Shown here: piece after piece, positions 6,466 through 42,094 of the stretch
Layout of the letters: each line of letters opens with the position of its first letter
How positions within the stretch are numbered: the stretch's first letter is position 1
Source: Cellvibrionales bacterium
GTDB lineage: Bacteria > Pseudomonadota > Gammaproteobacteria > Pseudomonadales > GM7GCV1
Assembly (NCBI GenBank): GCA_014323765.1
Contig: JACONM010000010.1
Location: forward strand, 15,447-58,488
Length of the DNA stretch: 43,042 nt
Direction: 5' to 3'
The notes under the pieces: generated by a model
Databases searched by the model: none
The model's input: the letters and a program-made list of their open reading frames with translations, nothing else
What the model was told of the DNA's origin: nothing
Made by a program: the position numbers and the translations under genes

Positions 6466-7846
6466 AAGATCCACAGAATACAGACTAAAAAGGGCCCAGT
6501 TCGCCCCCTTCGCCAAGCTGGTGCTCGACTGGAACGTGCGCCGCTCCGCCATCCTAATGGGGCCCCGCCGGGTCGGCAAAACCGTGATGCTACGCCAGCT
6601 GATTGACTGGGTGCTGTCCGCTGGCTTTCCGGGCACAAACATCCTTTTCGTGTCCGTCGATACCCCTCTCTACAGCGGCATGCCATTAGAGCGTCTCTTG
6701 TCTTTCTTTGCGGAACAAACAGGCCACGACCCCAAACAACGCCGCCTCGTCATCTTTGATGAAATACAGTACCTGAAGGATTGGGAAGTTCACTTAAAAG
6801 TCCTAACCGATCAGCGCCCGAACACACGCTTCATTGCTTCCGGTTCCGCGGCAGCGGCACTGAAACTAAAAAGCCAAGAGTCCGGCGCCGGCCGCTTTAC
6901 CGATTTCTTTTTACCTCCCCTGACATTTGCCGAGTTCCTAGCATTCCGCCAATGCGAAGACAAGTTAATCGAAGAAAATCGCAATGCCCAGAAAATAACA
7001 TACACCGCCAAAGATATAAATGCGCTAAATACCGAGTTTATCCACTACCTAAACTTCGGTGGATACCCAGAAGCCGTCCTTAACAAAAGCATTCAATCTG
7101 ATGTAAAACGATTTTTAGGGCGTGATATTATCGATAAAGTCCTACTGCGAGATCTACCGAGTCTGTACGGCATTCAGGATATCCAAGAACTAAATAGGCT
7201 ATTCACAAAAATCGCTTATCACAGTGGGCGGGAAGTCAGCCTCGATAAATTAGCGCAAAGCTCCGGTATCGTCAAAAACACGATTACCAAATACCTTGAC
7301 TATCTAGAAGCCGCATTCCTAATTGTCCGCGTCCGCCGAGTCGATGATACCGGCAAGACATTCAAACGCATGCGGAGCTTTAAGGTGTATCTAACAAACC
7401 CATCGATGCGCTCTGCCCTGTTCGCCCCGGTGCAGGATGGCGACGAACATATGGGGGCCATGGCTGAGACGGCCGTATTTAGCCAATGGTTCCATGCGGA
7501 TGTGCTAAGCAATATCCATTTCGCACAATGGAAGAAAGGCCGCTCAACCTTTGAGGTGGATCTGGTAAAAGTCGATTCCGCAGAATTGCGCCCCAGCTGG
7601 GCATGCGAGGTAAAATGGTCGGACCACTACGCGGGCAATCGCGCACGGGAATTGAAAGGACTCATCGAGATTGCCAAGAAAAATTCAGACATTGAAATGC
7701 CGGTCAGTGCAACGACAAAGACGATGGCTTGCGAGACAAGCATTGATGGTATCAACATTCAGCATTTTCCCTGCGCACTCTATTGCTACCAGATCGGTAA
7801 AGAAATCGCCGCATTTGACGGTTTAGGCGGGTTTCAATTTAGCTAA
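6389..7846 (+). CDS. AAA_14/DUF4143 family ATPase
   Basis: A 485-aa protein. The N-terminal AAA domain has Walker A GPRRVGKT at residues 58-65, Walker B LVIFDE at 120-125 and an ASGSAA sensor-like segment near 150. The C-terminal half (about 260-460) fits DUF4143, which carries a winged-helix segment and a PD-(D/E)xK-like part; an EVDLVK followed later by CEVKW fits that pattern. Proteins of this family are common in bacteria and archaea and mostly unstudied. They may be mobile or defence-related NTPases. The start matches the duplicated gene head upstream. The last 24 bases overlap the 3' end of the converging type III res gene, so the two could interfere with each other. Confidence 0.8.
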
Positions 7847-10800
7847 ATCTATCAGCGTTTTATAGCTATCTACGACATCGTACTTTATGCGCCCTGGATC
7901 AGTAGCGATACTTTGAAAAAATTTACGCGCACAAGCAATTTTCGCATCCTCTACCCCGCGCAACTGCATACTAGACAGGCTGCCCTTGGTTTCAGCGACA
8001 AAGTAAATGTGCTGCACGCTACCTTCCTTGAAAGAAATAGCCCAATCGGGGGTGTAATTGCCAACTGGAGTGGGGATCTGAAAGCCGCTCGGTAGCTTGG
8101 CGTAGACCACTACCTCGTTGCTTGCATCCAAGCCCCTTACGAACTCTTTCTCGATATTGGAATCAGAATCAATTTTTGCGTAGTCATAAATGTGCTTTTT
8201 CAAAACACCTTCCATGCGCGAGAAATCCTCACAAACCTGGTTGACGGTAAAAATATCGGCATCCTCGTGCTTTTCATTTATGACATCGTAAGTGATCTTT
8301 TCAATCATCATAGTGGCTTTTTGTTCATTGATAATACGCACTGCCTCTGATATAAACTGTTCTGGATTTTGCGGAAACTGCGCGAATACATTCTGGTCCA
8401 TCTGGTAGAGAATCTCCGCGGCAGTGCGGCGCGTTAATTGGGTGGGCCCGGCAACTTCATGTAGTAGGTCGTATTTAACCATCGATAAAGCGGATTTAGA
8501 GATCTCATTTTCGCTTTCCTTTACCTGAAACTCCATACCGGTCTGAATGCCGTCACGGCTCATCTCATCCGCCTGTTTGCCTTTTTCTACAATGTATTGA
8601 AAAGGCGTTACTTTGAGACCGTTAATAGCCGCAACGCACTTTGCAATTAGCTCTTCACTGCTAAAATCGACCTTATAGATCGCCTTGCGATTTATACGCT
8701 TCCATAGCTGTTGAAATTCTTTTTTGTAAAAATTTTGGTTGCGCCGGTTGATTTTGCGCTTGCGCCCGTTATCGGTCAGTTCCGCTAATGCAGCATCGCT
8801 AAACAGACTGTCGACGAGCTTAAATACTTGCTCCGCGTGGGGCCTTAAATCCTCCGGCAATTCCGCCAGTGCATCTGCAGATTTTGCCTCGTGATACGTT
8901 GCGACGATATTCTTGTGGCGGTCGACATAGCCGTTTTGTACCAAATAAAACTCCAGCCCAGCCGCCATGTCCGCGGTTATTGGCACCGCGCCTTTATCCG
9001 TTTGTAACGGCTTGTCTGTGAAGTACTTTTTAGTCGCCTGCCGCGGGCGCGATGCGAGGGTCTCGGCGATTTCCCGTTGCAGGCCGGCAACAAAATCCTG
9101 ATAGCCTTCATTGGCCACTACGGTCAATACATTGACTCGATGCACCTCGGCTTCCGGGCTGTCGATGCGCTCGCCACTTTGATTCACACTCAGCCGCAAA
9201 CCGCGCCCCACCTCTTGCCGGCGTGAAATTGTATTATCGCTGTGTTTGAGCATGCACATGGTAAAAACGTTGGGGTTGTCCCAGCCTTCGCGCAGGGCCG
9301 AGTGCGAGAAAATAAAGCGCACTGGCTCATCCTGCGACAGTAACCGTTCTTCATCGCGCAAAATCAGATCGTAGGCGTCGTTGTCATCAGACAGCCCCTT
9401 ATTTTCGCCGCGCTGCTGCACTTCAGGATCCACCAAACGTTTATTTTTATCGATGGAAAAATAGCCCTCATGAACTTGCTCCGCCGAGTCGGGTTCTAAA
9501 AATTGCCGATACGGTTTGCCCGTCAACATATCATCGATACATTCCTGTCGTAGCTGATTGTATTCCTCTTCAAACACCCGCGCATAGTCGCCCTTGCCAT
9601 CCGCCGCCTGATAATCGCGATACTTGGCGACCGTATCGATAAAAAATAGCGATAACACTTTAATTCCCCGCGCAAACAGTTCCTGTTCTTTTTGCAAATG
9701 GGCGCGAATGGTTTCCCGAATTTGAATGCGCCGCATGTGCGTTTCCGATATATCGCCGGTTGCATCGCCAGTCAGCAAGTCCTGCCCATTGGTGAACTCC
9801 ACCCGATCTTGGGCGGCATCGATTTGCGAGATGATATAGCCCTTATAGACTTGCAACCCGCCAGAAACCTTTTGCAAATTGTCGCCTAGGTTTAAGCGTC
9901 TTATTTGACGCTTTATCCGCCCGGATTTCAGTTTCACCTCTATTTCCAGCCGGGCGACCGGTGCTTTGTTAGATACGTCGATTCTTTCCAAATACATATA
10001 GGGGGCGGCACCACCTACGCCGCGGACTCGGATACCGCACACCGCAATTTTCTTTACCAGCTTCTGGTTATAGGCATCGAGCGCGTCCAGCCGGTGAATG
10101 CAGCAATGCTGGGTGCGGTGGGTGGCGGAATAGCGCAGGATAAATAGCGGCTTAAACTTCGGCAACGCTTGCATGGTGGCCTTGCCTTCCATTTTCTGCG
10201 GTTCATCTAGAATTAAAATCGGGCGGTTTGCGGCGATGACCTCTATGGGTCTGCGCGATTGAAAATCGTCTAGCTCGTCATAAATGCGGCGGTTGTCTTC
10301 CCCGCTGGCGTTGAACGCCTGGATGTTAATTACCATCACATTGATTCCGGAATTGGATGAGAAACTTTCTAGCTCGTGCAGATGCCTAGAGTTGTAAATA
10401 AAAAATCGCGCTTTTTTATTGTAATCTTGGTTGAAGTGGTCGGCGGTGATTTGCAGGGTGCGATACACCCCTTCACGGATGGCGATCGATGGCACCATAA
10501 CGATAAACTTTGACCAGCCGTAGCGTTTATTCATCTCGAAGATAGTTTTAATATAACAGTAGGTTTTACCGGTGCCGGTTTCCATTTCTATATCCAGATG
10601 TACATCGGTGGCTTTGATGGCTTCTCTTTTGTAAGCCGATTTGACCGCAACCCGCCTGCCGCGGGTGTCAACGGTCGTAAAGGCGTCCATCTGCTGCGAG
10701 ACGCTCAAATTCTGCCGTTGTTGAACTGCTTGGATATTTTGCAGAATTTGTGCATTGCTCAATTCAAGTTCGGCGTTTTTGCGACCATCATGTTCATTGG

Positions 10801-10945
10801 CGGCGCGTATGTGCTGGCCTGGCTTGGCCATGCCCGGATCAATGCGATAGCCGATACCATCCTTGCGCGGTTGGCCGGCAAAACAGTCGACCGTCGCTTC
10901 CACCGCCGCCGTTTGATATTTCTGAACTTTGAATTTTAGTTGCAT
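7823..10945 (-). CDS. Type III restriction enzyme, Res subunit
   Basis: A 1040-aa SF2 helicase-nuclease. Walker A is METGTGKT at residues 121-128 and the DExx box is ILDEPQ at about 245-250. Motif III/SAT-like ATH follows, and motif VI is QEVGRGLRL near 580. A C-terminal nuclease signature, YTPDW then AETKGS at about 975-1000, gives the D and ExK pair. Res subunits use ATP to slide or switch along DNA and cut about 25-27 bp from a type III site, but only in complex with Mod. The ATG has AAGGG about 6 bases upstream. It follows the split mod gene by ten bases. Because that mod is frameshifted, this subunit may have no working partner unless another Mod substitutes. Confidence 0.88.
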
Positions 10946-10955
10946 GTTGCGCCCT

Positions 10956-12799
10956 TCAAATCACCCTTAGGTCGGTGCTTGGCGAAATCTGTTTGAAAAT
11001 TTTCTCCGCGTTGATCTTATCCGAATCCGTGGTAAGGCCGCTGTCGCGGAATACCGCGCGCAGGGGTTTGCGCAGAGCAATGGCGGTAATTAGATCTTCA
11101 CTCAGATCGATGTCAAAGCAAGCCGCCAGATCGGTGCTATCGACAAAGAATACCCGTTTATTTTCGATAGTCTCGGATACGATCGGCAGGGTCAGGTCCA
11201 CCCCCCAAGCGACCAGCACCCCAAATAGCAGATCTTCGGGGGTACGCCCCGACACGATATTATCCACCCGATCGAGCAGGCCAGATTGCGGGGTCTCATC
11301 CGGGCGACGATGAACATTTCGTAGATTGGGCGAATCGATTTTGAGTACGCGGAAGCCAATATCGCCCTGCCAGTCGGGATGGCATGTATCTTGGCAGATT
11401 GCCTGACCGGCGCGGCGAATGCGCTCCTTACCAATCTCGGCAATGGTTTTGTAGCCCGCTTTGTAGGCTTCCTTTTTCTCGCCGCAGGCTTCCGGTAATT
11501 GCACCATAATAAACCGCCGATTGCCGCCGTCTTCGGCATTGAGTTTCATTACCGCGTGGGCAGTGGTGGCGGAACCGGCAAAAAAATCTAAAATGATGTC
11601 ATTTTTTCCAATCCACATTTTATCATTTTAGATAAATATGGCAATGGTTTTACTGTATCGAAAACTTGTGTTCCAAGCAATGCTTTTATTTCATCAGCTG
11701 CATTTGCAGCGTTAGATGAGTCTAGCCAAATTGTTTCGGGAATATCTCCCTTATATTCCGTAATAAATAATTTTCGATATACTTTATCACCATTAAATTT
11801 AAGTTTGTTTTCTTTATCTAGAATTTGCATGGTCTTCTTCCCAACAAGCCATTTTCGCTCCGAAAAGAATTCGCCTGTTTTGGATTGAAAAGCATAAATA
11901 GATCCGCCTTGAGAGCCGCGAGACCAGACACCTAACAATCGATAGTCACCCCGATGATCATTATCTGGATTTTTATATGCTTTTCTTGTTTCTTCTGGCA
12001 TATTTAACCGACTGAGTTGAGCATCAGCTATTGATCTTGAATAAACTATCAAATGCTCATGGTTACGACTAAAAAATTTTGCCGAATTATCTTTTCCACG
12101 TTTTCTCGACCAAACAATATTTGCAATAAAATTCCCCGCTCCAAAAACCTCATCACAAAGCCGCTTCAAATTGGCCGCTTCGTTGTCATCGATACTAATA
12201 AAAATCACCCCATCCTCGCGCAGCAAGTTACGCGCCAATCTCAGGCGCGGGTACAGCATGCTCAACCAGTCGGAATGGAAGCGGCCGTTGGATTCTGTAT
12301 TGGCGACTAGGGGATTGCCTGCTTCATCGGCCTGCCCGGAGTCGCGCTGATAGTCGGCATTGCGCTGGGCAAATCGGTCGCTGTAAATAAAATCCTTGCC
12401 AGTGTTATAGGGCGGGTCGATGTAAATCATTTTCACCTTGCCCAGATAGGTTTCTTGCAGAAGTTTGAGGGCCTCTAGGTTATCGCCCTCGATAAACAGG
12501 TTGCGGGTGCTATCAAAATCCACACTTTCATCGCGCACCGGGCGCAGGGTGTTAGCAGTGGGCATGTTGGCCGCGACCATGGCGGCGCGCTTGCCAGGCC
12601 AGTCGATCCGATAGCGTTCCTGCGGCCCTTCCACCAGCTCACCGCTCAACAGCTGCCGCAACAGATCAAAATCCACCGCCAAGCGCAATTCCCCAGTCGC
12701 CTCATCCCGCCCTTCCGTCACACACTCCGGAAACAGCTCGCGCAACTTAGCAATGCCACCCTGCCCCAGATCCGGGCTTTGCATTTTTAGCTTTTTCAT
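10956..12799 (-). pseudogene. Type III DNA methyltransferase Mod, split by a frameshift
   Basis: The first part (12799 down to 11588) has the catalytic DPPY at residues 128-131, and its real homology ends at YLSKMIK. The second part (11618 down to 10956) opens with [19 protein letters not shown], the SAM-binding motif I. This is the standard order for beta-class type III Mod proteins. Adding one base to the four-base T run at 11618-11621 (A on the coding strand) restores one frame of about 614 codons. As written, the N-terminal product lacks motif I and ends in nonsense residues CGLEKMTSF. The target-recognition region, about 11630-12150, is noticeably A/T-richer than the rest. Decay, a strain-specific off state or a sequencing error are all possible. 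The first ATG overlaps nothing and sits 11 bases after the small ORF upstream. Confidence 0.82.
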
Positions 12800-16235: not shown

Positions 16236-17417
16236 TCACTGGCCGATATAGTTACCTTCCTCATCAAACTGGGGGCAACGTTCAAGACCGAAGGCATTCC
16301 AAAGAAAATGCATCTGCTCGGCAATGATGCTCTCATAGTTGCCATCGTCTCGATACGCCGTGATCATCGTGGATGGCAGGTGTAGGGTTTCTCGATCGTA
16401 GGATGGGAGAAAATCATCGGGGGCAAACATGTTCTCGTTCTCGCACATCTGTGCGCCCTGTATATTCGTTGCTGATATTTGCATTAAAATTGGTGGTGAG
16501 GATTCGAGTTGCCGTAATCCGTACAGGTAGCACTTGAGCGGATCTATGAAGAACTTGCGCAGTTGTGATGATTGAAATATCCTCGCACCCTTTGAGCTGT
16601 TATCGATTATTTCTACGCTTGTGGCTTCCAGCGAACCATCGCGAAACACTTGCGTATAGCTGCGACAGGGGTTGTGGAACCGATAAAAGCAGTAGCCTTC
16701 TAGATTGAATCTTCCTTGCCTGTGTCCGAACGATCCAATCGGATCAAACCGTTGGCAACGCCCAAAGGAATTCGGAAATTCAATCCGCCGTGCAGCCCCA
16801 AAGTCAGGCAGCGGTACCAGATGCATAACCAAAACCCCCTCAGAGACCGGAAGCGGGATAAAGCCATCATCGTCCTGAATACGCAAGAAACGCTCGCCGA
16901 TAAATGCCTTAGCGCGTTCTTCAATGCTGCGTTGCGCACCGAATAGCAGGCGCAAATCTTCCATTGATAACTCGCAGGCCCCCGATGAAGTGCGCCCATA
17001 ATAGCGATTGCTGTTTTTATATATCACGCGGTGCGGTGGATTAAAGCTTTTTGGAACATGAATCAGGATAAGACTGCCGCCCTCCAGATCAATGCGTTTC
17101 ATACGAAGACCAACAATGGCTGGCTCCACCCCAGTTCGGGCAATGCTTTCTAGCCTTTGGAGTTCTTTATCAACATCACATGCCAAGGGCGATAGCGCAG
17201 AGGCCGTACCATGCTCTTCATCCATGCCAATGATTGAGTGGCCGCCGAGTGTATTGGCAAATGCCGTAATGTCTTTTAGCATCTCTTTCTTATCGGCATC
17301 GGCATTGCCGTAAGTATCTCGCTTAAATTCGAGATGCACGGATTCACTTGCCCCGCCATCTATCAGTTCCTGCAATGTGGCGGAGTCAATGGCATCGAAG
17401 TTTTTGCCTAGGAGCAT
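16236..17417 (-). CDS. Schlafen/AlbA_2-domain protein
   Basis: A 393-aa protein from the chosen ATG, which has AGGAA about 8 bases upstream; a longer frame would need a TTG at 17456. The AlbA_2 (Slfn box) domain covers about residues 15-150. It is marked by ESVHLEFKRD near 25-35, the FANTLGGHSIIGMDE turn near 55-70 and HVPKS followed by YYGRTSSG. Eukaryotic Schlafens use this fold as an endonuclease, while bacterial versions are often called ATP-binding regulators and occur in defence islands. The remainder has no motif I recognise. It is the last gene of the nine-gene run, 63 bases after the DUF4276 gene, so it may be an accessory effector or an independent rider. Confidence 0.75.
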   Translation of the reverse strand: MLLGKNFDAIDSATLQELIDGGASESVHLEFKRDTYGNADADKKEMLKDITAFANTLGGHSIIGMDEEHGTASALSPLACDVDKELQRLESIARTGVEPAIVGLRMKRIDLEGGSLILIHVPKSFNPPHRVIYKNSNRYYGRTSSGACELSMEDLRLLFGAQRSIEERAKAFIGERFLRIQDDDGFIPLPVSEGVLVMHLVPLPDFGAARRIEFPNSFGRCQRFDPIGSFGHRQGRFNLEGYCFYRFHNPCRSYTQVFRDGSLEATSVEIIDNSSKGARIFQSSQLRKFFIDPLKCYLYGLRQLESSPPILMQISATNIQGAQMCENENMFAPDDFLPSYDRETLHLPSTMITAYRDDGNYESIIAEQMHFLWNAFGLERCPQFDEEGNYIGQ

Positions 17418-17480
17418 GGCCCGGTTCCTCGTAAAATTGCTTGCGATACTTTGCAATCATGGCGTTGTTTGAAAGGTTTT

Positions 17481-18077
17481 TCAACCCATCACCAATTTGC
17501 CAATATGAGCTTCCCATTCTTTACACAGCTTGCGAAATGAGGGGCTTTGTTGCCGTGCTTGCCGCATATCAAATTGAGCCGTGAACGCTGGTTGATCAAG
17601 CGTTTCGCTGTAGGAACCTTGCATTTGGGTCGCCAGCCACTTCTTGGCATTGCGTTTTTCTTCGGCCGGCACAGCATGCTGCGGATCAAAGCAAAACCCC
17701 CTTTTGCCATCCAGCGAGCGAGCGGCGGCGATAAACCATGCCTCAAATTCTCGCTTGGCTAGGACGACCGAGAAACGACGATGCGGAATATACTCTTGCG
17801 CCCGCTTTAAAATATCTTTACTCAATTCAGCCGGGCAGTCATCGTCCGCATCGAGCACTAACAAAATCCAACCGTTTTCACCGCACTTGGCGGCAGCCAA
17901 CAACATCTGCCGCTTGAATTCATATTCCTTTTTTAAGAATTTATCTCGATGCACTCGGATAGGGGGTTCGGCACGCACTTCAGTTTGTGGCTGGCTTATA
18001 TTGGCAAGTCGGCGAATTAAAATAGGCAGTGCCGCCACTTCACCATACCCTTCCACAATAGACACCACAGATAACAT
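17481..18077 (-). CDS. DUF4276/Toprim-like protein paired with an AAA ATPase
   Basis: A 198-aa protein. VEGYGE at residues 8-13 supplies the Toprim glutamate. LVLDADDD at 73-80 supplies the DxD metal-binding acidic cluster. KREFEAWFIAAARSL follows at about 107-121. This arrangement is that of DUF4276, a Toprim-related family. Toprim partners of ATPases in OLD-like, PARIS-like and RloA/RloB (AbiL)-like systems act as nucleases, so the most likely role is the effector of the ATPase encoded two bases upstream. The near-overlap suggests coupled translation. No catalytic residue seems to be lost, but the activity is inferred. Confidence 0.78.
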   Translation of the reverse strand: MLSVVSIVEGYGEVAALPILIRRLANISQPQTEVRAEPPIRVHRDKFLKKEYEFKRQMLLAAAKCGENGWILLVLDADDDCPAELSKDILKRAQEYIPHRRFSVVLAKREFEAWFIAAARSLDGKRGFCFDPQHAVPAEEKRNAKKWLATQMQGSYSETLDQPAFTAQFDMRQARQQSPSFRKLCKEWEAHIGKLVMG

Positions 18078-18079
18078 AG

Positions 18080-19279
18080 TTAGATCTCACCGAATAAATC
18101 GATTCTCGATTGTTGTTGCGCTTGTAGAGAAGTGCGGTCAGGATCCAGCTTATTCATCCGCAGCAACTCGCCCGCAGAAAAAAGGTGTTCTCTTAGCATT
18201 TGTCGCGAGGCTCCATCCAAAGGTGCCAGTTTGGTAGCCCCTTCCTCCGCAACGACAGCAATTATCGATTCCGCGTCGATGGCGAGGTCATCGAGTAGAT
18301 CCGGGCTATGACTGGTCACTAAAACCTGATTTTGTTGTGCAGCTTGGTTAAGCACTTCGCGCAGTACACCACTCGCAAAGGGATGGAGCGCAGTTTCTGG
18401 CTCTTCAATACCAATTAAGAGAGAGGAATTATTCGCGTTGCTTTGCATCAGTGCCGTCAACACCCCTAAGGCTCTCAGTGTGCCATCCGACATATTTTGC
18501 GCTAGAAATCGCCACGGGTGTTTGGCACCCTGAACGGCTTGCCGAAACTCTAAAGTCTCCATAGGGCCAACGGCTTTGCACTCCATGCTTTGCACCATGG
18601 GGGCCACGGTGTTTAGGTATTCATTGATCTGCCGTAATTGATCGGGTGCAGTGCGCTTCAAGTGGCGAATAACGCTCGCAATGTTTTCGCCAACAGGTTT
18701 CAGCAGGCGGCCATCTTGCGGCTTTTGCAACTCACGCATTACTTTCGGGTTTAGGTTGTAAAACCCCATGGCCGTCAAAGCATCAAAAACCGATCGAAAC
18801 GCAGTCAAGCCTGAAGCAGCCACTAAAGCCAGCCGGTCGGAAGTTACTGAAGGGAAGGGCTGTTCGCTTGAATCTATTAGCTTGCCTCGCTCAATTTTGA
18901 AATAAGGGCCAGATCCTTTGCCATCAATGGCGCAGTGCTCCTCCTGCACTTGATAAGATCCGCCCGCTAGAGCACTGACTCTGAACGCGTACCATGCATC
19001 GCGACCATCGCTCAACCGAAATTCCAAGCGGATAGCGATATTATTGGGGTGCCCGCTAGAACGGCGGCGCACTTCATCTAGACCGCCGCGCTCGCTCAGG
19101 GCATTGTCCAGCGAGTTAGCCAGCGCATCGCGCACAAAATGCAGCGCATCTAGAAAATTGCTTTTGCCGGCCCCGTTTTGTCCCACTAAGTAGGTCAGCG
19201 GGCGCAAGCGAATATCACAGCGGGCAATGCTCTTATAGCTGCGCAAAATAACGCGCTGAATGAATGCAGATTCCATCAT
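18080..19279 (-). CDS. AAA/ABC-type ATPase (AAA_21), partner of the DUF4276 protein
   Basis: A 399-aa SMC/OLD-like ATPase. Walker A GQNGAGKS is at residues 33-40, the ABC-like signature NMSDGT at 262-267, Walker B LLIGIEEPE at 287-295 and the switch TSHSPDLLD at 322-330. The middle (about 60-250) is a variable coiled or sensor region. The ATG has AGGA about 7 bases upstream, and a second ATG follows directly. It lies 37 bases after mod and 2 bases before the DUF4276 gene. Such ATPases usually sense phage or replication stress and license the nuclease subunit; that role here is inference from family and context. Confidence 0.85.
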   Translation of the reverse strand: MMESAFIQRVILRSYKSIARCDIRLRPLTYLVGQNGAGKSNFLDALHFVRDALANSLDNALSERGGLDEVRRRSSGHPNNIAIRLEFRLSDGRDAWYAFRVSALAGGSYQVQEEHCAIDGKGSGPYFKIERGKLIDSSEQPFPSVTSDRLALVAASGLTAFRSVFDALTAMGFYNLNPKVMRELQKPQDGRLLKPVGENIASVIRHLKRTAPDQLRQINEYLNTVAPMVQSMECKAVGPMETLEFRQAVQGAKHPWRFLAQNMSDGTLRALGVLTALMQSNANNSSLLIGIEEPETALHPFASGVLREVLNQAAQQNQVLVTSHSPDLLDDLAIDAESIIAVVAEEGATKLAPLDGASRQMLREHLFSAGELLRMNKLDPDRTSLQAQQQSRIDLFGEI

Positions 19280-19316: not shown

Positions 19317-22300
19317 CTAAACCCCAAAAACCCGCATCACCTCATCCCCCAGATGATTGATGGCTTTGACGGCGATGCAGCCGCTATCAGGGCGGTCAAA
19401 CGGGCGGCTGGTGGCGCTGTGTAGGCTGGCCCAGGCTTCGGGGTCTATGTCTGCTTTTAGGGTGGTTTTTAGGGCTTTGTAGGGGCTGTCGGCACCGAGG
19501 AAATAGGCGTGGCGGACGAAGAAGGCCTCGTGGTTGTAGCCGGTGTCGATAAACCAGCAGGCGATGTCGCCGGTGTCGCCGCTGCGCACTTGGCCGGTTT
19601 GCGGGTCAAACAGGTCAATGCCCCGCAGGTGGACGCGCAACTTGTTTTCAGGCAGGTGCTCTATTTCAATATCTGGCTCGCCGAATATGACAAACAAATT
19701 GGCTTTGTCGGTTTTGGCGAGGTCGCCCGCCATATGCAGGTCGGCGTTCATGCGGGCTTGCAATATGGGGAGTCGGCCCAGCTTATTCAGGTCGGCGGCC
19801 CCCGCATCGTAATTGAAGGCGCAGGCGATCAGCACGTCAAAGCCGGACTCGGCAGCCTCACGGGCAGCGGCGGCGAGGTCTTGGCGACCCACGGTGCCAA
19901 ATTCCGGGCCAATAAAAATGGCGGCGCGCTTCTGGGATGAGTCGGCGCCCACAGCACCCGGTTCGGTATAGACCCCCTCGGCGGCAACCAGTTCGCCGGG
20001 CCAGTCGGTCAGCGAATCAAAAGCAATCCGCCCGCTGCGTTGCACCTGTTGGATACCGGCGATTTTTAGGTTGTCCAGAATCACCCGCACAAAATCCCCG
20101 GCACCCCCGGCATCGGTGCTGGCGGGCAATTCCATTAGCTCGCCGTTTTCATCGATGGCGGGGGTGCGGTGCGGCGATAGACTTTCCATTGTGAAGGGGC
20201 CGGCCACGCGCACGGTGTGGCGGTCCTCATAGGGTTTGTCGTGCAGGGTTTCATACTCGGCATTGCGAGCGATGGACGCATCGATGGCGTGCTGGCGGGC
20301 AATCCGCGCCTGCCAAAATTCTGCCAAGGCCGCCTTCGCCGCCGCCGGCCAGTCATCGGGTGGGTCACGGGGCACTTCCCATTCCAATAGTTCCCCGGCG
20401 GGGACGCTTTCGCCGCTTGGCAAGTCGGTTTTATCGGTGGCGGTGAAGTCGACCGCCTGCCCTTTGCGCCCGCCGGCTTGCACGGTGAAGGGGGTTTTGT
20501 GGCCTTTTAAGGCTTCATTTAGGGCTTTGAGTGCGCTTTCCACCGCCGGCTGATGTTCCGCCCACAGGCTGTCAATCTCGGCATTGTTGGCGATGGCTTT
20601 TAGGGTGATGTGCGGCACCCGTTGGCAGACAAACCCTTGGCAAATGTCGCCGCCGGTCGGGGTGGATGCGGGGGCTTTGTCGGTGATTTCTGCCAATTTA
20701 TCTTGCCCCGCTTTGCTGTCGGCCAGCAAATAAAAGGGATAGCGGGCACCCATAAGGCGGGCACGGGCCAGCACCAATGCCACTCGGCTGGTGTCTATCG
20801 TAATCCACCGCCGGCCCCATTGTTCGGCGACGTAAGCGGTGGTGCCGGAACCGCAGGTGGGGTCTAAAACTAGGTCGCCGGGGTCGGTGGTCATTAGGAG
20901 GCAGCGTTGGATGACTTTATCGGCGGTTTGGACGATATAGGATTTGTCGCCAAAGCTGGCACCAGTGTCCCCCCAAACATTAGAAAACCTGAGCAAGGGG
21001 AAGTCATCAAAAAAGCGGACGTAACTAATGCTTTGCGCGTTTCCCCGCAAACAAATTCGCCCAGCCTTGATTAGACGGGACATGCCTGCTTCGCTTGTTT
21101 TCCAGCTGCCATGAGAAAAGGCAAAATCCAGCCCGTTGAGCGACACCGAGAATTGGCCTTTTGCTCCCCCGCTTTGACTGCGTAAATTGTCGTAGCTAAA
21201 CAATCGGCCCCCCCCCCCCCCCGCTTCTATATCGTTCGCCTTGCAGACACTGCCATCTTCACGCATCAGGAATTTGTAGTTTTGCGATGTAGATGCCGCC
21301 CCCGATTTATCCTCATAAAGCTCCCGATATTTGCAGTGCTCGCGGCTTTTGGCATACCAAAGCAAATAATTGCTGGCTTGAGATAAAAAATTGCCGGCTC
21401 GCCCCGTTGTCGTTTTGTAGGCAATCTGCGTGATGCAGTTTTTATCCCCAAACACCTCATCCATCAAAACCCGCACCCGATGGACATTCTCATCACCGAT
21501 TTGCACAAAGCATGATCCCGACTCGGTCAGTAATTCGCGGCAGACGATCAGCCGGTCGCGCAAATAGGACAGATAGGAATGGATGCCATCGCGCCATGTA
21601 TCGCGGAAGGCTTTGACCTGCTCTGGCTCGCGGGTGATGTGTTCGGTCTTGCCGTCTTTCACATCGCGGCGGGTGGTCAACCATTGAAAGTTGGAATTGA
21701 ATTTGATGCCATAGGGCGGGTCGATATAAATGCACTGCACTTTCCCCCGCAGGCCCTCGCGCTCGGCTAGGCTGGCCATCGCTTGCAGGCTGTCGCCGAG
21801 GATGAAGCGGTTCGACCAGTTGGCCTCGTGTTGGTAAAACTCGGTGCGTTCCGCGCCATCGGGCAGGCCATTGAAGTCGGCAAATATATCGGGCACATCG
21901 CCTGCCTCTGGATTGGCGGCGCGAGATTGAACGGTCTGGCGGCGCAGGTCGTCAATCAGGGCTTTCGGGTGGATGCGCTCTTGGATGTAGAGGGGGGCGG
22001 CGGGGACGATTAGGGAGTCATCGGCGGCGGGATCGCTGGGGATATTTCCCTTTGCGGCGGCTGGTGCGCCGGCTGCGTTTTCGGCATCTGCTGCGCCCGT
22101 GGCTTTGGTGGACGGTGCGCCCGTGACGGGCGGGGTGGCGGGGGCGTATTTGCCGCGCCAGATCAGCTGCGGGTCTAGGTCTGGGTTCCGCGCCGCCCGG
22201 TCTGCCGCCAGCGTATCCTTTGTCCCATTATTGGGCTGCGCAAAACGCGCCGGCAGCGGTCGTTTGTCATCCTCATTCATGAGTGGTTGATGCTCTGCGC

Positions 22301-22382
22301 TAGGCAGGTTTTTGCGCGACGCCTTCTTGTGAGTCAGGGTCGCAACCTGCTTGGGGGTGGTTTTGCGGGGTTTCTTGGGCAT
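19317..22382 (-). CDS. Type III-like DNA methyltransferase with a phase-variable G tract
   Basis: A 1021-aa adenine or cytosine-N4 methyltransferase of the long Mod type. Residues 1-130 are low-complexity, rich in Ala, Pro and Lys. The catalytic DPPY is at 221-224 and motif I, LDPTCGSGTT, at 506-515, the beta-class order. The target-recognition region lies between them and contains a poly-Gly run at 388-392 encoded by 15 consecutive G (21208-21222). In this sequence the run leaves the gene in frame. Gain or loss of one G would truncate the protein at around 390-430 residues, before motif I, and abolish methylation. Its natural partner is the res gene at 26096-29158, with four other genes between them. 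GGAG lies about 9 bases before the ATG. Confidence 0.85.
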   Translation of the reverse strand: MPKKPRKTTPKQVATLTHKKASRKNLPSAEHQPLMNEDDKRPLPARFAQPNNGTKDTLAADRAARNPDLDPQLIWRGKYAPATPPVTGAPSTKATGAADAENAAGAPAAAKGNIPSDPAADDSLIVPAAPLYIQERIHPKALIDDLRRQTVQSRAANPEAGDVPDIFADFNGLPDGAERTEFYQHEANWSNRFILGDSLQAMASLAEREGLRGKVQCIYIDPPYGIKFNSNFQWLTTRRDVKDGKTEHITREPEQVKAFRDTWRDGIHSYLSYLRDRLIVCRELLTESGSCFVQIGDENVHRVRVLMDEVFGDKNCITQIAYKTTTGRAGNFLSQASNYLLWYAKSREHCKYRELYEDKSGAASTSQNYKFLMREDGSVCKANDIEAGGGGGRLFSYDNLRSQSGGAKGQFSVSLNGLDFAFSHGSWKTSEAGMSRLIKAGRICLRGNAQSISYVRFFDDFPLLRFSNVWGDTGASFGDKSYIVQTADKVIQRCLLMTTDPGDLVLDPTCGSGTTAYVAEQWGRRWITIDTSRVALVLARARLMGARYPFYLLADSKAGQDKLAEITDKAPASTPTGGDICQGFVCQRVPHITLKAIANNAEIDSLWAEHQPAVESALKALNEALKGHKTPFTVQAGGRKGQAVDFTATDKTDLPSGESVPAGELLEWEVPRDPPDDWPAAAKAALAEFWQARIARQHAIDASIARNAEYETLHDKPYEDRHTVRVAGPFTMESLSPHRTPAIDENGELMELPASTDAGGAGDFVRVILDNLKIAGIQQVQRSGRIAFDSLTDWPGELVAAEGVYTEPGAVGADSSQKRAAIFIGPEFGTVGRQDLAAAAREAAESGFDVLIACAFNYDAGAADLNKLGRLPILQARMNADLHMAGDLAKTDKANLFVIFGEPDIEIEHLPENKLRVHLRGIDLFDPQTGQVRSGDTGDIACWFIDTGYNHEAFFVRHAYFLGADSPYKALKTTLKADIDPEAWASLHSATSRPFDRPDSGCIAVKAINHLGDEVMRVFGV
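21208..21222. repeat. Poly-C(15)/poly-G tract in mod
   Basis: Fifteen consecutive C on the plus strand, G15 in the coding strand. It starts with the last base of an Ala codon and ends two bases into the fifth Gly codon. Long G tracts inside methyltransferase genes are the classic substrate for slipped-strand phase variation, as in the mod genes of Helicobacter and Neisseria. Confidence 0.9.
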
Positions 22383-22398: not shown

Positions 22399-22812
22399 TT
22401 AGGGGCAGAGGTCTGCGGTCAGCAAGTGTTTATGCTGCGCTGTTTGGTAGACGCTGCCTTTGGCGATTTCTTTGAAATCGGCATGCAGGGCTTGGTCCTT
22501 AGACACCAGAACTTTTGCCTTGGCAGCCAGTGCCAAGGCGATGATGTGCGGATCGTTTGATTGCAACTTTGGCAATGTCGCTTGCTCGGCTTGCACTTTA
22601 CGTTTATCTACCAATTTCGCCCTACCGGTTTTGGCAAGCTCATCGAGTCGGTCCTTGAAGCCAGTCCTCTTCCTAATTTCGGCATTGAATTGGGTAGCAT
22701 TAGAGTAAGCGATCTTGCCGCCTTTTTCCAACCAGAGATGGACGGGCTGCATGTTTTTATTTTTCTGGTTCATAAAATCACCCTGAACATTGGCATCTAT
22801 GATAATACACAT
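22399..22812 (-). CDS. PIN-domain protein paired with an AAA ATPase
   Basis: A 137-aa protein from the ATG at 22812, which puts the first strand CIIIDANV at the N-terminus as PIN domains require; a longer frame from 22899 would overlap the ATPase gene. Acidic residues expected for PIN nucleases are visible: Asp in DANV, Asp in SNDPHIIALA (about residue 88) and Asp in VSKDQALHADF (about 103). PIN proteins are metal-dependent RNases, often toxins. No small antitoxin gene adjoins it. Instead it follows an AAA ATPase gene by 19 bases and precedes mod by 16, so it may be the nuclease half of an ATPase-effector pair. Confidence 0.75.
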   Translation of the reverse strand: MCIIIDANVQGDFMNQKNKNMQPVHLWLEKGGKIAYSNATQFNAEIRKRTGFKDRLDELAKTGRAKLVDKRKVQAEQATLPKLQSNDPHIIALALAAKAKVLVSKDQALHADFKEIAKGSVYQTAQHKHLLTADLCP

Positions 22813-22831
22813 GGGCTTATGTCTTTTGCCG

Positions 22832-24175
22832 CTATTCCGAAAAACCAAGGAAACGGTCACTTTCTTGCAAAAAGAATTGCCCGTATTCTGGCGGTACATT
22901 TTCTATATTACCCTGCTCATCGAAGGTGATATTGTGCGTCTGCACACCCTTTGCATCTTTCTTTTCTAAATAAATAAGAGAGACATCATCGGGTGAAATA
23001 TGACCACGCCTGATTTCGATACGAGCACGTTTTAGCATGTAATCGCTATGAGTTTCGATAACGCAACCAGGCAGAGGATGAGGTTGCTTTTGATTCAGCC
23101 GTTGCACCAGTAGCGATGCCAAAGCCGCTTGACCGCGAGGGTGCAGGTGAACTTCAGGCTGTTGCACTAATAATATGTTGCGAGATCTTAGGACGTCCAC
23201 TACAATGGGGAGAGCTTGGCTTATTCCGTAGCCGGTATCAATTAGGTTGACTTCTGGACCGCTTACCTTTACTCGTATCTGAAACGGATTGCTGCCGGAT
23301 TTTCCGAGTTGCTTGACCTGTATATCTTTGAACAGACCAGAATCCTTGCCGAAACTAATCAGTTCCTCGCGTAACACCCGCCATGCTTCTTTGTATTCTC
23401 TGGCCATATTTATGAAATACATGGGTATATCAGCACCGGTGGCATCGGGCAATTCCGCAACTGGGTCATAAGTACGGCGTGGTTCAGCACGCACGGGAGC
23501 AATGCTTTGCATTGCTGTTAGGTTGATTTTCTCCATCCTATCAAGATCGAGATGTTCCACAAAATCAATAAATTCCTTTTGGCTGGATAAGATTGACTGC
23601 TCAGATCTCAGCAGGTGCCGCAATAGAATAGGGCGAACACTATTAATTACTCTGTCTGAATCCGATATAACGAACAGCGGGCACCCATCTTCTGTTCTTT
23701 GTTTTCTTTCGAATTTAAGTGGTTCGTTTTCAAATGGCGTTTTTCTTTGGCGCAGGTGTTGTTCAGCCCAATCGCTTGCCACCAATCGGATGCTGCCCTT
23801 GGAAAATCGCCACTCTTGGCTATCGATAACCGGTTCTGGTCCATCCCCGCGCTCCTTGAGGGTAATGCGGTATTGAACCGATTCTTTTCTATCGATTGTT
23901 AGGGTTAGGGCTAATGAAAAAGACTCCTTTAGCGGACGGCTTTTACGCACGATCTCCCGAAATGAACCCATCTTCCAAGGCTGTTCATTGAAATCCGGGT
24001 TATGAGAATAGCGCAAGTTTGCAGGATTCGTACTACCCATCGCTTGCATGCACCCAAGCACAGTAGATTTGCCCGTGCTGTTCTCCCCCACCAGAAAGGT
24101 AAGCGGACGGATGCGCAGGCGGTGCTCGCCGGCAAAGCAGCGCACGTCTTTGATGCAAAATTCGGTGATGTTCAT
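22832..24175 (-). CDS. AAA ATPase (AAA_15/DUF3696-like), partner of the PIN protein
   Basis: A 447-aa protein. Walker A GENSTGKS is at residues 30-37. A GYGISQALPIV stretch stands in for the signature, and HLHPRGQAALASL follows the Walker B strand. ETHSDYMLKRARIEIRRG is the switch region typical of DUF3696-type ATPases. The Walker B strand reads ILLVQQPE: both positions usually filled by Asp/Glu are Gln, where relatives commonly have one acidic residue (EQPE or DEPE). ATP hydrolysis could therefore be weak, which is inference. The gene is less GC-rich than the core genome. It starts 112 bases after the preceding PD-(D/E)xK-like gene, the widest gap in the operon. Confidence 0.8.
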   Translation of the reverse strand: MNITEFCIKDVRCFAGEHRLRIRPLTFLVGENSTGKSTVLGCMQAMGSTNPANLRYSHNPDFNEQPWKMGSFREIVRKSRPLKESFSLALTLTIDRKESVQYRITLKERGDGPEPVIDSQEWRFSKGSIRLVASDWAEQHLRQRKTPFENEPLKFERKQRTEDGCPLFVISDSDRVINSVRPILLRHLLRSEQSILSSQKEFIDFVEHLDLDRMEKINLTAMQSIAPVRAEPRRTYDPVAELPDATGADIPMYFINMAREYKEAWRVLREELISFGKDSGLFKDIQVKQLGKSGSNPFQIRVKVSGPEVNLIDTGYGISQALPIVVDVLRSRNILLVQQPEVHLHPRGQAALASLLVQRLNQKQPHPLPGCVIETHSDYMLKRARIEIRRGHISPDDVSLIYLEKKDAKGVQTHNITFDEQGNIENVPPEYGQFFLQESDRFLGFSE

Positions 24176-24287: not shown

Positions 24288-24848
24288 CTAACTCTTCGCC
24301 GATTTTACAAGATCATGGATGTGCATGCTCGACCTGTTTGCTATCTCTAAAACATGGTCGAAGTTGCGTTGATCTTGGCTTTTGGTTATGCCGGAGGTTT
24401 TGCGATGGACGGTGCCCTGCTTTTCAGATCCAGGCCGTGGGAACCAGATTAGTAGGCCGATGGAAATTGGTTTTTCTTCGAGATGACCGTGGCACCGGTA
24501 AAGCTGTATCAGCCAGTCGCAGAAGAGGCGACCGTTTTCCAGCTGGTGTTTGTAACTATCCTTGTGTTTCGTTTTCATCTCTATTGAAAACAGATAGCAA
24601 TCTCCGCGATGATGGCATGCTAGGATGGCATCGCACATTTTATTTACTCCGTGCGGTGGGCTGCCGCTGAAGAAAGCAAAGGGTTTTGGATTGGCACGAT
24701 CTAGAGAGAAAGCAAAAGAATGCCTATTTGCCAATCGAATTTCAACGGTTTTCCCATGTTCATGCAGCGTCCAAATCCTATCTTTTCTTTCCAGCTGATA
24801 AGCCGGATCAATCGTCTGTTGTAGCAATTCAGCTAGAGTATTAGTCAT
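24288..24848 (-). CDS. PD-(D/E)xK nuclease-like protein paired with an AAA ATPase
   Basis: A 186-aa protein I do not recognise as a named family. Residues 71-102 fit a restriction-endonuclease-like core: Asp73 in CDAIL, then a strand leading to Glu90-x-Lys92 (IEMKTKHKD), followed by a helix with HQLENGR around 101-107. The N-terminal 60 residues are mixed beta, and the C-terminus is helical and basic. Its start overlaps the end of the preceding ATPase gene by eight bases, a strong sign of coupled translation. An ATPase-controlled DNA or RNA nuclease is the simplest hypothesis. Confidence 0.6.
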   Translation of the reverse strand: MTNTLAELLQQTIDPAYQLERKDRIWTLHEHGKTVEIRLANRHSFAFSLDRANPKPFAFFSGSPPHGVNKMCDAILACHHRGDCYLFSIEMKTKHKDSYKHQLENGRLFCDWLIQLYRCHGHLEEKPISIGLLIWFPRPGSEKQGTVHRKTSGITKSQDQRNFDHVLEIANRSSMHIHDLVKSAKS

Positions 24849-26043
24849 TTTCTTGCTCTCGCCGCTCTTGCAAGCTGTAATAGATATCGTTGTTAACGCG
24901 ATTCAGATCGTCAATCACTTCATCGAAGGTGGAGGCGTAAATGCCGTCATCGGGAGTTACTTCGAATTCTTTAATTGTTCCCTCATCGAATAGATAGGCG
25001 GCGACCTGATCGGTTTTCAAGGTCTCGGCTTGGTCATAGGCATGCTTTTTTTGCAAATCTTCTGCCGCGGACTCTCCTAGCATCAATAGGGTGTTAATTT
25101 CCCGCACTATATAATCGCTGTGGGTGCTGACCACCACGCGCAGCCCAGCATTCACTAGGCGGGCCAGCAAGCGGGCGATGGCGCGTTGGTGACGCGGGTG
25201 CAGGCTTAGCTCCGGTTCGTCAATCATTAGCACATCGCCTTTTTTTGCCTGGTGTCTTAGATAGAACCAGAGCCCGAATAAGCTTTTCACGCTGCTAGCG
25301 GTGGCGTGTAGATCTAATTCTGGTGTGGTGTCTTTTTGCTTGGTTTGATGGGGTTTGAAAACAATGCTCCCGGTACCCGGGTTCATCCGATAGGCCCCGG
25401 CGGCAAGTGTCTTCTCTAGTATTTCGGCTAATTTATGAAAGTCCGCCGAATGCTGATTGGAGATTTCAAACAATCTGTTTAGCCAATTTATATATTCGGC
25501 GATAGGTGCGGCATAGGGCGAGCGGATAACATTGCGCAATAATCGCTCCATGTCGATTCCCTTGTGCGAGACTTGGTGTAACAGGGCGGCGCGACGGGCA
25601 CTTAGCTCACGAAAGAAAAGATGCAGCCCGTTGCGCTCGGCGGGCATTAGAAAAGGGCTTAGCACTCCCCAGTCGGCGATGATTTTTGGCAGACTAAGCG
25701 TACTCTCTAGGTAGATGCGAGGATTGGACAACTGTTCCTCGGGGATGTTGAATACAGTATTTTGTAGATAGCTGTTGCAGCGGTCGTTAAAGGCTTGCAA
25801 ATTTTGCGCAAAGAGAGGCTCTACTGCTGGCAGACTTGGTTTGCGCTCTTCTTTCCATGACCCCTGAGCTAAAAAGCTTAGACCGTAGTAACAGTGGTTC
25901 AGCGCATACATCACCCAAGTTTTTCCACTATTATTCGGCCCACAGAAAAGCGTTAGCGGCTTTGGGGTAAAGCTGCCGGAGCGTACGCTGCCTAGGTTTT
26001 CTACGCTAAATGTTAGATCGTTTGTCGCCGTGTCGTTTTTCAT
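24841..26043 (-). CDS. AAA ATPase (AAA_15-like), partner of the PD-(D/E)xK-like protein
   Basis: About 400 aa from the ATG at 26043, which has AGGAA about 7 bases upstream; another ATG at 26058 lacks such a site. Walker A GPNNSGKT is at about residues 35-42, Walker B DVLMIDEPELSLHP at about 270-283 and the switch VVSTHSDYIVRE at about 304-315. The region between has helical, probably coiled segments. Unlike the neighbouring ATPase of the PIN pair, its Walker B has both acidic residues. It starts 52 bases after res and overlaps the nuclease-like gene by eight bases, forming an ATPase-effector module inserted between res and mod. Confidence 0.82.
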   Translation of the reverse strand: MKNDTATNDLTFSVENLGSVRSGSFTPKPLTLFCGPNNSGKTWVMYALNHCYYGLSFLAQGSWKEERKPSLPAVEPLFAQNLQAFNDRCNSYLQNTVFNIPEEQLSNPRIYLESTLSLPKIIADWGVLSPFLMPAERNGLHLFFRELSARRAALLHQVSHKGIDMERLLRNVIRSPYAAPIAEYINWLNRLFEISNQHSADFHKLAEILEKTLAAGAYRMNPGTGSIVFKPHQTKQKDTTPELDLHATASSVKSLFGLWFYLRHQAKKGDVLMIDEPELSLHPRHQRAIARLLARLVNAGLRVVVSTHSDYIVREINTLLMLGESAAEDLQKKHAYDQAETLKTDQVAAYLFDEGTIKEFEVTPDDGIYASTFDEVIDDLNRVNNDIYYSLQERREQEND

Positions 26044-26095
26044 GGGGTGTTCCTGCATTTTGTATTGTCTCTAGTATAGCCTGTTGCTGCGGGGC

Positions 26096-29000
26096 CTATG
26101 CGGAGTTTTTCGGGTGAACGCTGCTTAGCATCCGCTCAAACTCAGCATCTACTCGCTCGGCGAAGTCTTCTTGTATAGTATAGACATCGGTAAATTCTGC
26201 GAAGGCCCAGCGGCCGAATTGGCCGCTGTTATTTATGCCTGGAATCCAATAGGTGTCCATGGTGAGTTTTTTGACTTTGGCATCTTCGCCGCGGTAGCCT
26301 TTTATTTCGACGATTAAATTAAGCGGGTCGTCTGCGCCCTTTCCATCGTCTATTTGCACGATAAAATCTGGGCGGTATTGGTGTGCGCTGCTGCCCTGGC
26401 GGTAGGGGACTTCCAGTCCTAGGTTGTGGTTTTTTACATAGGCTAGAACCTGCGGGTGGCGTTCGACCACGCGGCAGAATTCGGCTTCCCAGTTGCTGTC
26501 GAGAATTATCCGGTCGATATGGCAGCGGCGCGGGTCGGTTTTCCAGCGGTTGGTTTTGCTGGTGGTGAAGTTGACGTGGCGGGTGGAACCGCTGCGGTTG
26601 TAAGGGTCCAGCAACGCCTGCACCGCCCGGCCTTTGGCTTGCTCGGCGGTGGTGATGGCGGCACTGATGCGTTGCACGGCCCTTGCGGCTAATTCCGCAT
26701 ACATTAGCTGCGCCGGGTGGGTGCCGCCTTTGCATTTTAGATAATCGGCGAGCCATTGCCGGGTAATCTGTTTTAGCTGGCCGAACAGGTGCATTTTAGG
26801 CGCACCGTTCTGGTCGCGATAATGGTTTATTAACAAATGTTTGGTTAATTCGTAAGCCAGAGTGGAATCACGCAGATTTTTGTTTTCAACCGTGGTTAAC
26901 TCGATGGATTCGCCGATTAGCCCTGAGTTTTCAGTGATGGTAGGGCCGACCTTATCTGGGGTTAACTCCAACACCGACTCTTCATTAAAGTGAACGCTGA
27001 GTCGCTCGTCCGGTAATACGGTGCGATAACCGGTTACTCGTGGAAAGCAAATTTCCAGTGCATCGCGATCGGGGCGGATGGCTTTTACCCGAATGGTGTT
27101 GGGCGGTGGTTGCGGCGGGGCGACTGTGGGTTTGGCGGTGAAGTCGAAGGGGATGCCGAACACATCGGCATATTCCACATCGAGGCAGCCGGTATCCTTG
27201 TTTAGCTCATAAGACTGGCGGCGCAGGGCGCGACCGACGACCTGCTCGCACAGTAGTTGGGTGCCAAAGGCGCGCACGCCGAGCACGTGGGTCACAGTAT
27301 TGGCATCCCAACCTTCGGTGAGCATGGAGACTGAAACCACGCAGCGCACCTCGCCGCCGAGTTTGCCGGGTTTGCCGACGGTGTTCATAAGCTCGCGCAG
27401 CAAGTCTTGAGGTTTTAGGTTTTCTGCCGCTTGGCGATCGCCGGTGCGCTTGATGATTTCGTTGCGGTAGATCTCGATTTCCGCCTTGGCTGCCGCCTGA
27501 AAGTCTTTGCTTAGGCCCTCGCCGGATTCCAGCTGCTGGCTGTCGATGAGCACGGTTTTTGGGCGCGATAGGGGGTGGCCATGCTCGTCAAAATTGCGGA
27601 ATAATTCTAATGCGCCGTTTTGTACCGTTTTGCTGCCGTCTTCATTATCGCGCTCGAAACCGGCGATGTAGTCGTACACCAATTTAGAGGTGGCCGTGTT
27701 ATTGCAAACTACAATAAAACAGGGTGGGGCGGACATCTTTGCCTTGCGCGACATCTGGAAAGTTTTTTCATAGTGGTCGTAAAGAGCTTTTAGTGCCCTT
27801 TGTAATTGAAGCGGAATTTGGAGCGGGTCCAGCGGGCCAGCTTTACCGCGGCCCTTTTTCGGCATATCAGAGCGGATGTGCTGCCACAGGTTGCGGAATA
27901 GCGGTATTTCCGAACTGGGGATATTATCGACCACCGGCACCCGCGGTAGTTTGACGATGCCGCATTCGATCGCATCCATGAGTGAAAAGTCGCTCATGGT
28001 CCAAGGGAAAAGAGTGCCCTCGCGATAGCCGGAACCGCTCAAGAAAAAGGGCGTGGCGGACAGGTCGAAAATGCGGCGGATGCCGAGTTTGCGGGCCACG
28101 GTTTCCAACCCGGAAATCCACAGCCGCGCCGCCTCGCGGTTAGTTTCGGCCTCTTGACGGGCCTCGCCTTTGAGGGTGGGCTCTTCGGCTTCTGCAGCGG
28201 GTTTTTCCCGGTAGCAGTGGTGCGCCTCGTCATTTAAAACTAGGATGTTTTGCATCCCCATCAGGTCGCCGATAACCCGTTGTAGCATTTGGCCTTCGGT
28301 CTCCGCCGTTTGCGGTGCCTTTCCATGCGGGCCCTGGATAAGGGCGCGGGTGCCTTTGGACAGTTCCAGCCGCTCGCGGTGTTTGAAAGCGTGGTAGTTG
28401 GTGATGATGATTTTGGCGCGTTCTAGGTCGCGCAACATGTCTTGGGGGACGAGTTCGCGGCTTTGGTAGTAGCTGTTTGGGTCGTTGGGTTGTAATACGC
28501 GCAGGCGGTCTTTGATGGTTAGCCCCGGGGTAACCACTAGAAAACCGCGAGTGAACGTTTTGCTGCCCGGTTTGCGCACGGCATTCAGGGTTTGCCAGGC
28601 AATCAGCATGGCCATGACCGTGGTTTTGCCTGCGCCGGTGGCCAGCTTGAGGGCGAGGCGCGGTAGGCCCGGGTTGGCCTCTTCATTGACCGCTTCAAGG
28701 GGGTCGAGAAAGGCCCGGCGGGTCTGCGCCCGCTGCGGGGCGACCTCGGTTAGCCAAATAGCCGCCTCCACCGCCTCAATTTGGCAAAAGAACGGGCGGA
28801 TGTCGTTAAATGCATGCTGCCGCCAATGCCGCAACAGCCTTGCGGTTGTGGGGCTAACCCGCCAGTGTTCCGCAGGCCGCTTGCGCCATTCGTCCAGAGC
28901 GTCGCGCAGCTGGTTGATAATGGGTATTTCGCTGTAACGGTGCGCTTCGCCTTCCAGCATATCCTGCGATTGGGCATCTTTGCGTTTCTTATTTTTGGGC

Positions 29001-29158
29001 ACCGGGGTGACGTATCCGGCGCGACGGCGCGAGCCTTCCCGTTGACCGGTCGGCTGGCCGTCTTCGTCCAGCTGCCAATGCGCGGTTGGCGGCTCGTAGG
29101 GCGAGTTCAGAATAGGCCGGGTGAAAAAGCTGTCTGGATCTGGGTTTTGTGGCGACAT
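26096..29158 (-). CDS. Type III-like restriction enzyme Res
   Basis: A 1020-aa SF2 helicase-nuclease. The N-terminus (residues 10-40, FFTRPILNSPYEPP and WQLDEDGQPTG) is that of the long Res proteins found next to 1000-aa Mod proteins, the type sometimes named BPTD_3080 family. Walker A-like ATGAGKT is at about 173-179, a LNDEAHH box at about 310, SATPF near 370 and VGRALRRQSY near 650. A C-terminal nuclease core has YRPDFIVQ, then VEIKGYRGE at about 960-985, giving D and ExK. It is the first gene of the nine-gene run. No clear ribosome-binding site precedes the ATG, and 161 bases separate it from the broken NYN gene. Confidence 0.86.
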   Translation of the reverse strand: MSPQNPDPDSFFTRPILNSPYEPPTAHWQLDEDGQPTGQREGSRRRAGYVTPVPKNKKRKDAQSQDMLEGEAHRYSEIPIINQLRDALDEWRKRPAEHWRVSPTTARLLRHWRQHAFNDIRPFFCQIEAVEAAIWLTEVAPQRAQTRRAFLDPLEAVNEEANPGLPRLALKLATGAGKTTVMAMLIAWQTLNAVRKPGSKTFTRGFLVVTPGLTIKDRLRVLQPNDPNSYYQSRELVPQDMLRDLERAKIIITNYHAFKHRERLELSKGTRALIQGPHGKAPQTAETEGQMLQRVIGDLMGMQNILVLNDEAHHCYREKPAAEAEEPTLKGEARQEAETNREAARLWISGLETVARKLGIRRIFDLSATPFFLSGSGYREGTLFPWTMSDFSLMDAIECGIVKLPRVPVVDNIPSSEIPLFRNLWQHIRSDMPKKGRGKAGPLDPLQIPLQLQRALKALYDHYEKTFQMSRKAKMSAPPCFIVVCNNTATSKLVYDYIAGFERDNEDGSKTVQNGALELFRNFDEHGHPLSRPKTVLIDSQQLESGEGLSKDFQAAAKAEIEIYRNEIIKRTGDRQAAENLKPQDLLRELMNTVGKPGKLGGEVRCVVSVSMLTEGWDANTVTHVLGVRAFGTQLLCEQVVGRALRRQSYELNKDTGCLDVEYADVFGIPFDFTAKPTVAPPQPPPNTIRVKAIRPDRDALEICFPRVTGYRTVLPDERLSVHFNEESVLELTPDKVGPTITENSGLIGESIELTTVENKNLRDSTLAYELTKHLLINHYRDQNGAPKMHLFGQLKQITRQWLADYLKCKGGTHPAQLMYAELAARAVQRISAAITTAEQAKGRAVQALLDPYNRSGSTRHVNFTTSKTNRWKTDPRRCHIDRIILDSNWEAEFCRVVERHPQVLAYVKNHNLGLEVPYRQGSSAHQYRPDFIVQIDDGKGADDPLNLIVEIKGYRGEDAKVKKLTMDTYWIPGINNSGQFGRWAFAEFTDVYTIQEDFAERVDAEFERMLSSVHPKNSA

Positions 29159-40960: not shown

Positions 40961-42094
<1,134 letters not shown>

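Follow-up and report, generated by a model that had tools for sequence, protein, structure and literature searches.

A candidate phase-variable poly-G tract in the recognition domain of a type III DNA methyltransferase from a Cellvibrionales bacterium

The 43,042 bp stretch of Cellvibrionales DNA analysed here, referred to as the window, carries a run of 15 G within mod, the methyltransferase gene of a BPTD_3080-type type III restriction-modification (R-M) system. This tract is best interpreted as a contingency locus, through which mod would be randomly switched ON and OFF by phase variation, and a probability of roughly 0.8 is assigned to this reading. It is favoured because the source genome contains approximately 43 poly-G loci that are enriched in surface and R-M genes, are present in a mixture of frame states, and include tracts in promoters and between target-recognition domains (TRD), and because no match to MutS or MutL was found. 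Phase variation of mod had been put forward as likely in the first-pass annotation of this DNA, and on the genome-wide poly-G evidence it stands as the best reading. Slippage at the mod tract, the ON/OFF phenotype, and any associated regulon or polar effect are presumptive.

The mod tract and the type III locus

The features of the locus are listed in Table 1. The tract was assembled without a gap and has unique coding sequence on both sides. As originally described, it is in frame within the target-recognition region of Mod, with the DPPY motif (221) before it and the SAM-binding motif (507) after it. The open reading frame of mod is retained only when the tract length is a multiple of three, at 12, 15, and 18 G. 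With 13 or 16 G, translation stops at 394–395 aa, and with 14 or 17 G at 436–437 aa. A one-base slip was also said to truncate the enzyme ahead of motif I and this is indeed the case, the products being 395 aa (+1) and 436 aa (-1) against a motif that begins at residue 507. The tract is thus placed where a one-unit change shifts the frame, as in phase variation mediated by simple sequence repeats (SSR). Within the window there are 14 overlapping matches to G or C runs of at least 9 bases, compared with a mean of 0.88 in shuffled sequence, and none of 100 shuffles reached 14. Under a first-order Markov model, 0.015 G or C runs of at least 15 bases are expected in the whole 1.88 Mb genome. An exact search of viral contigs with the sequences flanking the tract returned zero matches.

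Table 1. Positions within the window of mod, its poly-G tract, and the neighbouring genes.
Feature	Position	Strand	Remarks
G15 tract (C15 on the + strand)	21208..21222	-	encodes Gly387-391 of Mod; proposed slippage site
mod, type III DNA methyltransferase	19317..22382	-	1021 aa; in frame (ON) as assembled
Motif IV DPPY, aa 221-224	21711..21722	-	invariant in homologue alignment
Motif I DPTCGSG, aa 507-513, SAM binding	20844..20864	-	lost in both off-frames
TAG met after +1 slip	21196..21198	-	395-aa product
TAA met after -1 slip	21071..21073	-	436-aa product
Res subunit, BPTD_3080 family restriction endonuclease/helicase	26096..29158	-	1020 aa; NF046055 1321 bits; ResIII + RE_endonuc
PD-T4-4_A-like ATPase, between res and mod	24841..26058	-	PADLOC 314.7 bits
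PD-T4-4_B-like partner	24288..24848	-	PADLOC 47.5 bits
NsnB / PDC-M55A-like ATPase	22832..24175	-	PADLOC 139.1 and 106.9 bits
166-aa protein directly upstream of mod	22399..22899	-	no family match
HEC-01A ATPase	18080..19279	-	PADLOC HEC-01A 579.6 bits; possible polar target
HEC-01B (DUF4276)	17481..18077	-	PADLOC 278.5 bits; PF14103
AlbA_2/Schlafen-domain protein, final gene of putative operon	16236..17456	-	PF04326

Mod matches PF01555 (E=4.5e-31) and the PADLOC MTase_III model PDLC03632 (1139 bits), and its closest solved structures are the Mod of 6k0w and the EcoP15I Mod, 4zcf. The order of its motifs, with DPPY followed by the TRD and then motif I, is that of a beta-class type III Mod. 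The Res partner has an SF2 helicase and an endonuclease domain, and its score is well above the NF046055 cut-off of 800 bits. In 71 of the 80 homologous loci Res and Mod occur as neighbours, often separated by other genes. Neither the same-genus genome (G001) nor the same-family genomes (G002-G004) contain mod. The 1.88 Mb source genome has 19 methyltransferase-like matches to Mod, an unusually rich set of DNA methyltransferases. A second type III mod is present in the window at 10956-12799 (-), where the frame is broken near an A6 run so that the gene falls into two ORFs; a Res of its own (7823-10945) lies downstream. This second mod may be a pseudogene, the result of an indel error, or a poly-A switch.

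No G run longer than 7 was found in the mod genes of 80 homologues, which are from other species of many phyla and are 43–58% identical. This suggests that there is no conserved protein-level need for the run of glycines. In the alignment of these homologues the tract is located in a gap-rich stretch of the TRD, just before the sequence R-x-F-x-x-D-N-L-T-S-Q, where the homologues have loops that vary in length. An AlphaFold model of Mod residues 150-570 has a mean pLDDT of 70. The tract glycines are residues 238-242 of this model, where a helix ends and a loop leads into a strand, with local pLDDT values of 74–90. Given its gap-rich position in the alignment and its placement at a helix end and loop in the model, in-frame changes in the length of the tract would probably be tolerated.

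Switching is proposed to arise through slippage of DNA polymerase on the G15 tract during replication. Tract lengths that are multiples of three would yield full-length Mod, which would methylate and, jointly with Res, restrict (ON). At other lengths translation would end within the recognition domain, at 395 or 436 aa, before the SAM-binding motif is reached, and no Mod would be made (OFF). By analogy with type III systems, in which Res acts only in a complex with Mod, the OFF state should silence restriction as well, and switching would therefore not be self-toxic. A clonal population would then be a mixture of cells that restrict and cells that do not, and their methylomes would differ.

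The minus-strand gene order is Res, the PD-T4-4-like pair, the NsnB/PDC-M55A-like ATPase, the 166-aa protein, Mod, HEC-01A/HEC-01B, and AlbA_2. The Mod stop codon is separated from the start of HEC-01A by 37 bases, therefore slip-driven polar effects on the downstream HEC-01 and AlbA_2 genes are possible. Scanning the operon for promoters and terminators was uninformative, as the counts were the same as those in shuffled sequence. Linkage of mod with HEC-01 as a general rule was rejected, there being a HEC-01A-like neighbour in just 3 of the 80 loci. A search of the literature collection used here found no paper on BPTD_3080 or on HEC-01/DUF4276. A broader proposal is that the single mod tract switches a multi-layer defence operon as a unit, with type III restriction turned off, the HEC-01 pair and AlbA_2 lowered by polarity, and cells alternating between defended and undefended, and that the ON lengths of 12, 15, and 18 G, each one glycine apart in the recognition-domain loop, may in addition tune specificity. 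This wider role is tentative and, on balance, doubtful.

Poly-G tracts in the source genome and its relatives

The source genome (G000) is a 1.88 Mb assembly of 40 contigs that is 91.6% complete. It contains 74 G runs of at least 9 bases and only 4 such A runs. In 246 kb read from this genome, a sample made up mostly of stretches picked around G tracts, G or C runs reach 30 bases and A or T runs are no longer than 8. About 43 independent loci have at least 10 G, where 8 are expected under a first-order Markov model, and 15 loci are at least 14 long, where the same model predicts 0.05. Across 95 related genomes there are 0–16 runs of at least 10, with the maximum of 16 being in a 4.2 Mb genome, and there are 0–2 such G runs in the same-genus and same-family genomes. 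The tract is therefore both commoner than chance and confined to this lineage, as is typical of SSR-mediated phase variation.

Some of the shorter loci with at least 10 G belong to a G-rich repeat found between genes (CCCCCCTGACAAGGGGGG...) and probably do not act as switches. Members of this repeat family (AAGCCCCCCTGACAAGGGGGGTTTGGGGGGTTGG and variants) are found in L113, L114, L115, L116, L131, and L134, and a copy of the GGGGGGTTT-type is present in the window at 41568-41645. Scaffold gaps of 20 N coincide with long G tracts, inside them or at their end, in at least 8 cases. The two sides of one of these, at C1:3708-3766, read G14-CAGC and G21-CAGC, giving two apparent lengths. This is consistent with more than one tract length in the sequenced material, and PCR or sequencing slippage would look alike. 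A C14 at the edge of the window (7-20; G000:C10:15404-15466, L119) forms one end of a longer G tract, which contains a 20-N gap and is located close to the N-terminus of a 619-aa PDC-M33A-like gene; another PDC-M33A-like gene, L128:824-2785, has a tract as well.

Of 19 genes for TonB-dependent receptors, 8 carry a tract against an expected 1.1, a 7-8 fold enrichment (P about 2e-5). As assembled, the receptor genes at C34:38154, C10:213467, and C17:2656 are in frame, while C10:251170 and C34:48372 hold out-of-frame (OFF) ones, a mixture that is as expected from a random sample of switching loci. The TonB-receptor pieces have no close orthologue in the same-genus genome G001 or the same-family genomes G002-G004. 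In two porin-like OMP_b-brl genes, L120:2548 and L120:8772 (G000:C10:107654 and 113908), a long G tract directly follows TTGACA, where it would form the spacer of a putative promoter. A type I HsdS (L129:9557-10691; G000:C12:276711) has G14-N20-G18 exactly between its two recognition domains. In a 905 aa N6-methylase at C38:22693 the tract is near the C-terminus and the gene is out of frame as assembled. Tracts are also found in genes for RTX proteins, a sulfatase, an S41 peptidase, and a PKD-domain protein, and in genes near a GT92 glycosyltransferase.

Searches for MutS_V (PF00488) and MutL_C (PF08676) found no match in the source genome. MutS was found in 50 of the 57 genomes searched, including three of the same family, and MutL in the same-genus G001 and the same-family G002-G004; G001, which is 86% complete, has MutL and is without MutS. 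Since neither gene was found in the source genome while its relatives have them, this species has probably lost mismatch repair; at 91.6% genome completeness, the absence is likely rather than certain. As a sufficient cause of tract growth such a loss was rejected, because genome G045 lacks both genes and has no tract of at least 10.

Once mismatch repair had been lost, G runs might simply have expanded wherever a gene tolerates them, in which case the mod tract would slip without any adaptive role. The missing MutS and MutL matches, the apparently non-essential nature of the majority of the tract genes, and the many shorter tracts held in intergenic repeats all fit with this. However, the A runs of the genome show no growth and the repair-less G045 has no tracts. 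Neither the 7-8 fold enrichment of TonB receptors nor the position of tracts at functional switch points, such as promoter spacers, signal peptide or plug regions, and between the HsdS TRDs, would be expected of neutral growth, which is therefore considered unlikely. It is very improbable that the mod run or its length is an artefact of assembly or sequencing, such as a homopolymer miscall. Several of the tracts do contain 20-N gaps, some are followed by odd bases, and the second mod in the window, broken at its A6 run, is possibly an example of an indel error. The mod tract, in contrast, is gap-free, in frame, and flanked by unique coding sequence, and the 74 genome sites fall into coherent gene classes. 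Generic homopolymer error, or 454-like miscalling, was rejected, since this would affect A and T equally and the long runs are of G or C only. It is scarcely credible that the glycines are a fixed structural linker of the recognition domain, kept at the protein level and never switched. At this loop some homologues carry G-G-R or G-G-K, but no homologue has more than a short glycine pair. Furthermore, all five glycines are encoded by one codon run, where a mixture of codons would escape slippage, and there are out-of-frame tract genes elsewhere in the genome.

Comparison with known poly-G switches

A contingency locus in mod would have its nearest parallel in modH of Helicobacter pylori, a type III phasevarion in which a poly-G tract of 9-15 determines the ON or OFF state and strains are found in both states (PMC3230613). 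Like modH, the gene described here is a type III mod whose frame is set by a poly-G tract and which has a res partner. It differs in belonging to another Mod subfamily, in having its tract of 15 G inside the TRD, and in the presence of further defence genes, both between res and mod and beyond them. Phase variation and a regulon are demonstrated features of modH and presumptive ones of the window mod. In Campylobacter jejuni the type IIG R-M gene cj0031 has a mid-gene poly-G tract (position 2573 of 3732), switching of which alters methylation and phage restriction (PMC4889913). Both are R-M genes split by a mid-gene poly-G tract; however, cj0031 encodes a single-chain type IIG enzyme with 9 G and the system in the window is a two-subunit type III with 15 G. 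The poly-G tract of the Neisseria gonorrhoeae NgoAV hsdS lies between two specificity halves and alters specificity rather than switching the system ON or OFF (PMC9577141). This layout is shared by the HsdS of the source genome and not by the window mod.

Beyond the R-M genes, poly-G tracts are found inside the ORFs of the Neisseria haem receptors hmbR and hpuA (PMC3786947), and in Neisseria porA a G tract is located in the promoter of an outer membrane protein (OMP) gene (PMC3639595). The TTGACA-adjacent tracts of the two OMP genes found here have the porA arrangement. Campylobacter genomes have dozens of poly-G tracts, mostly of 9-10 G (PMC6321876). The source genome resembles these contingency loci of Neisseria and Campylobacter in having G tracts in TonB-receptor ORFs and OMP promoters, and in having dozens per genome. 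Unlike those host-associated pathogens, it is from another lineage and is uncharacterised, and its tracts reach 30. The mechanism proposed for mod would be the same as that of the known poly-G switches; the differences lie in the Mod subfamily, the position within the TRD, the tract length, the defence cassettes around it, and the uncharacterised host.

It is above all in host-adapted pathogens that phase-variable methyltransferases are known. In its poly-G repertoire this bacterium is similar to Neisseria or Campylobacter, with approximately 43 loci that include receptors, porins, RTX proteins, and R-M genes of the type I, type III, and N6-methylase kinds, and the repertoire apparently arose after the loss of MutS and MutL. 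With same-family relatives that keep both MutS and MutL, a same-genus genome that keeps MutL, and 0–2 tracts in each, the lineage offers a natural comparison for the evolution of contingency loci. It also carries a warning that an R-M gene that seems 'intact' or 'broken' in a metagenomic assembly may just have been sampled in one of two states between which it can switch.
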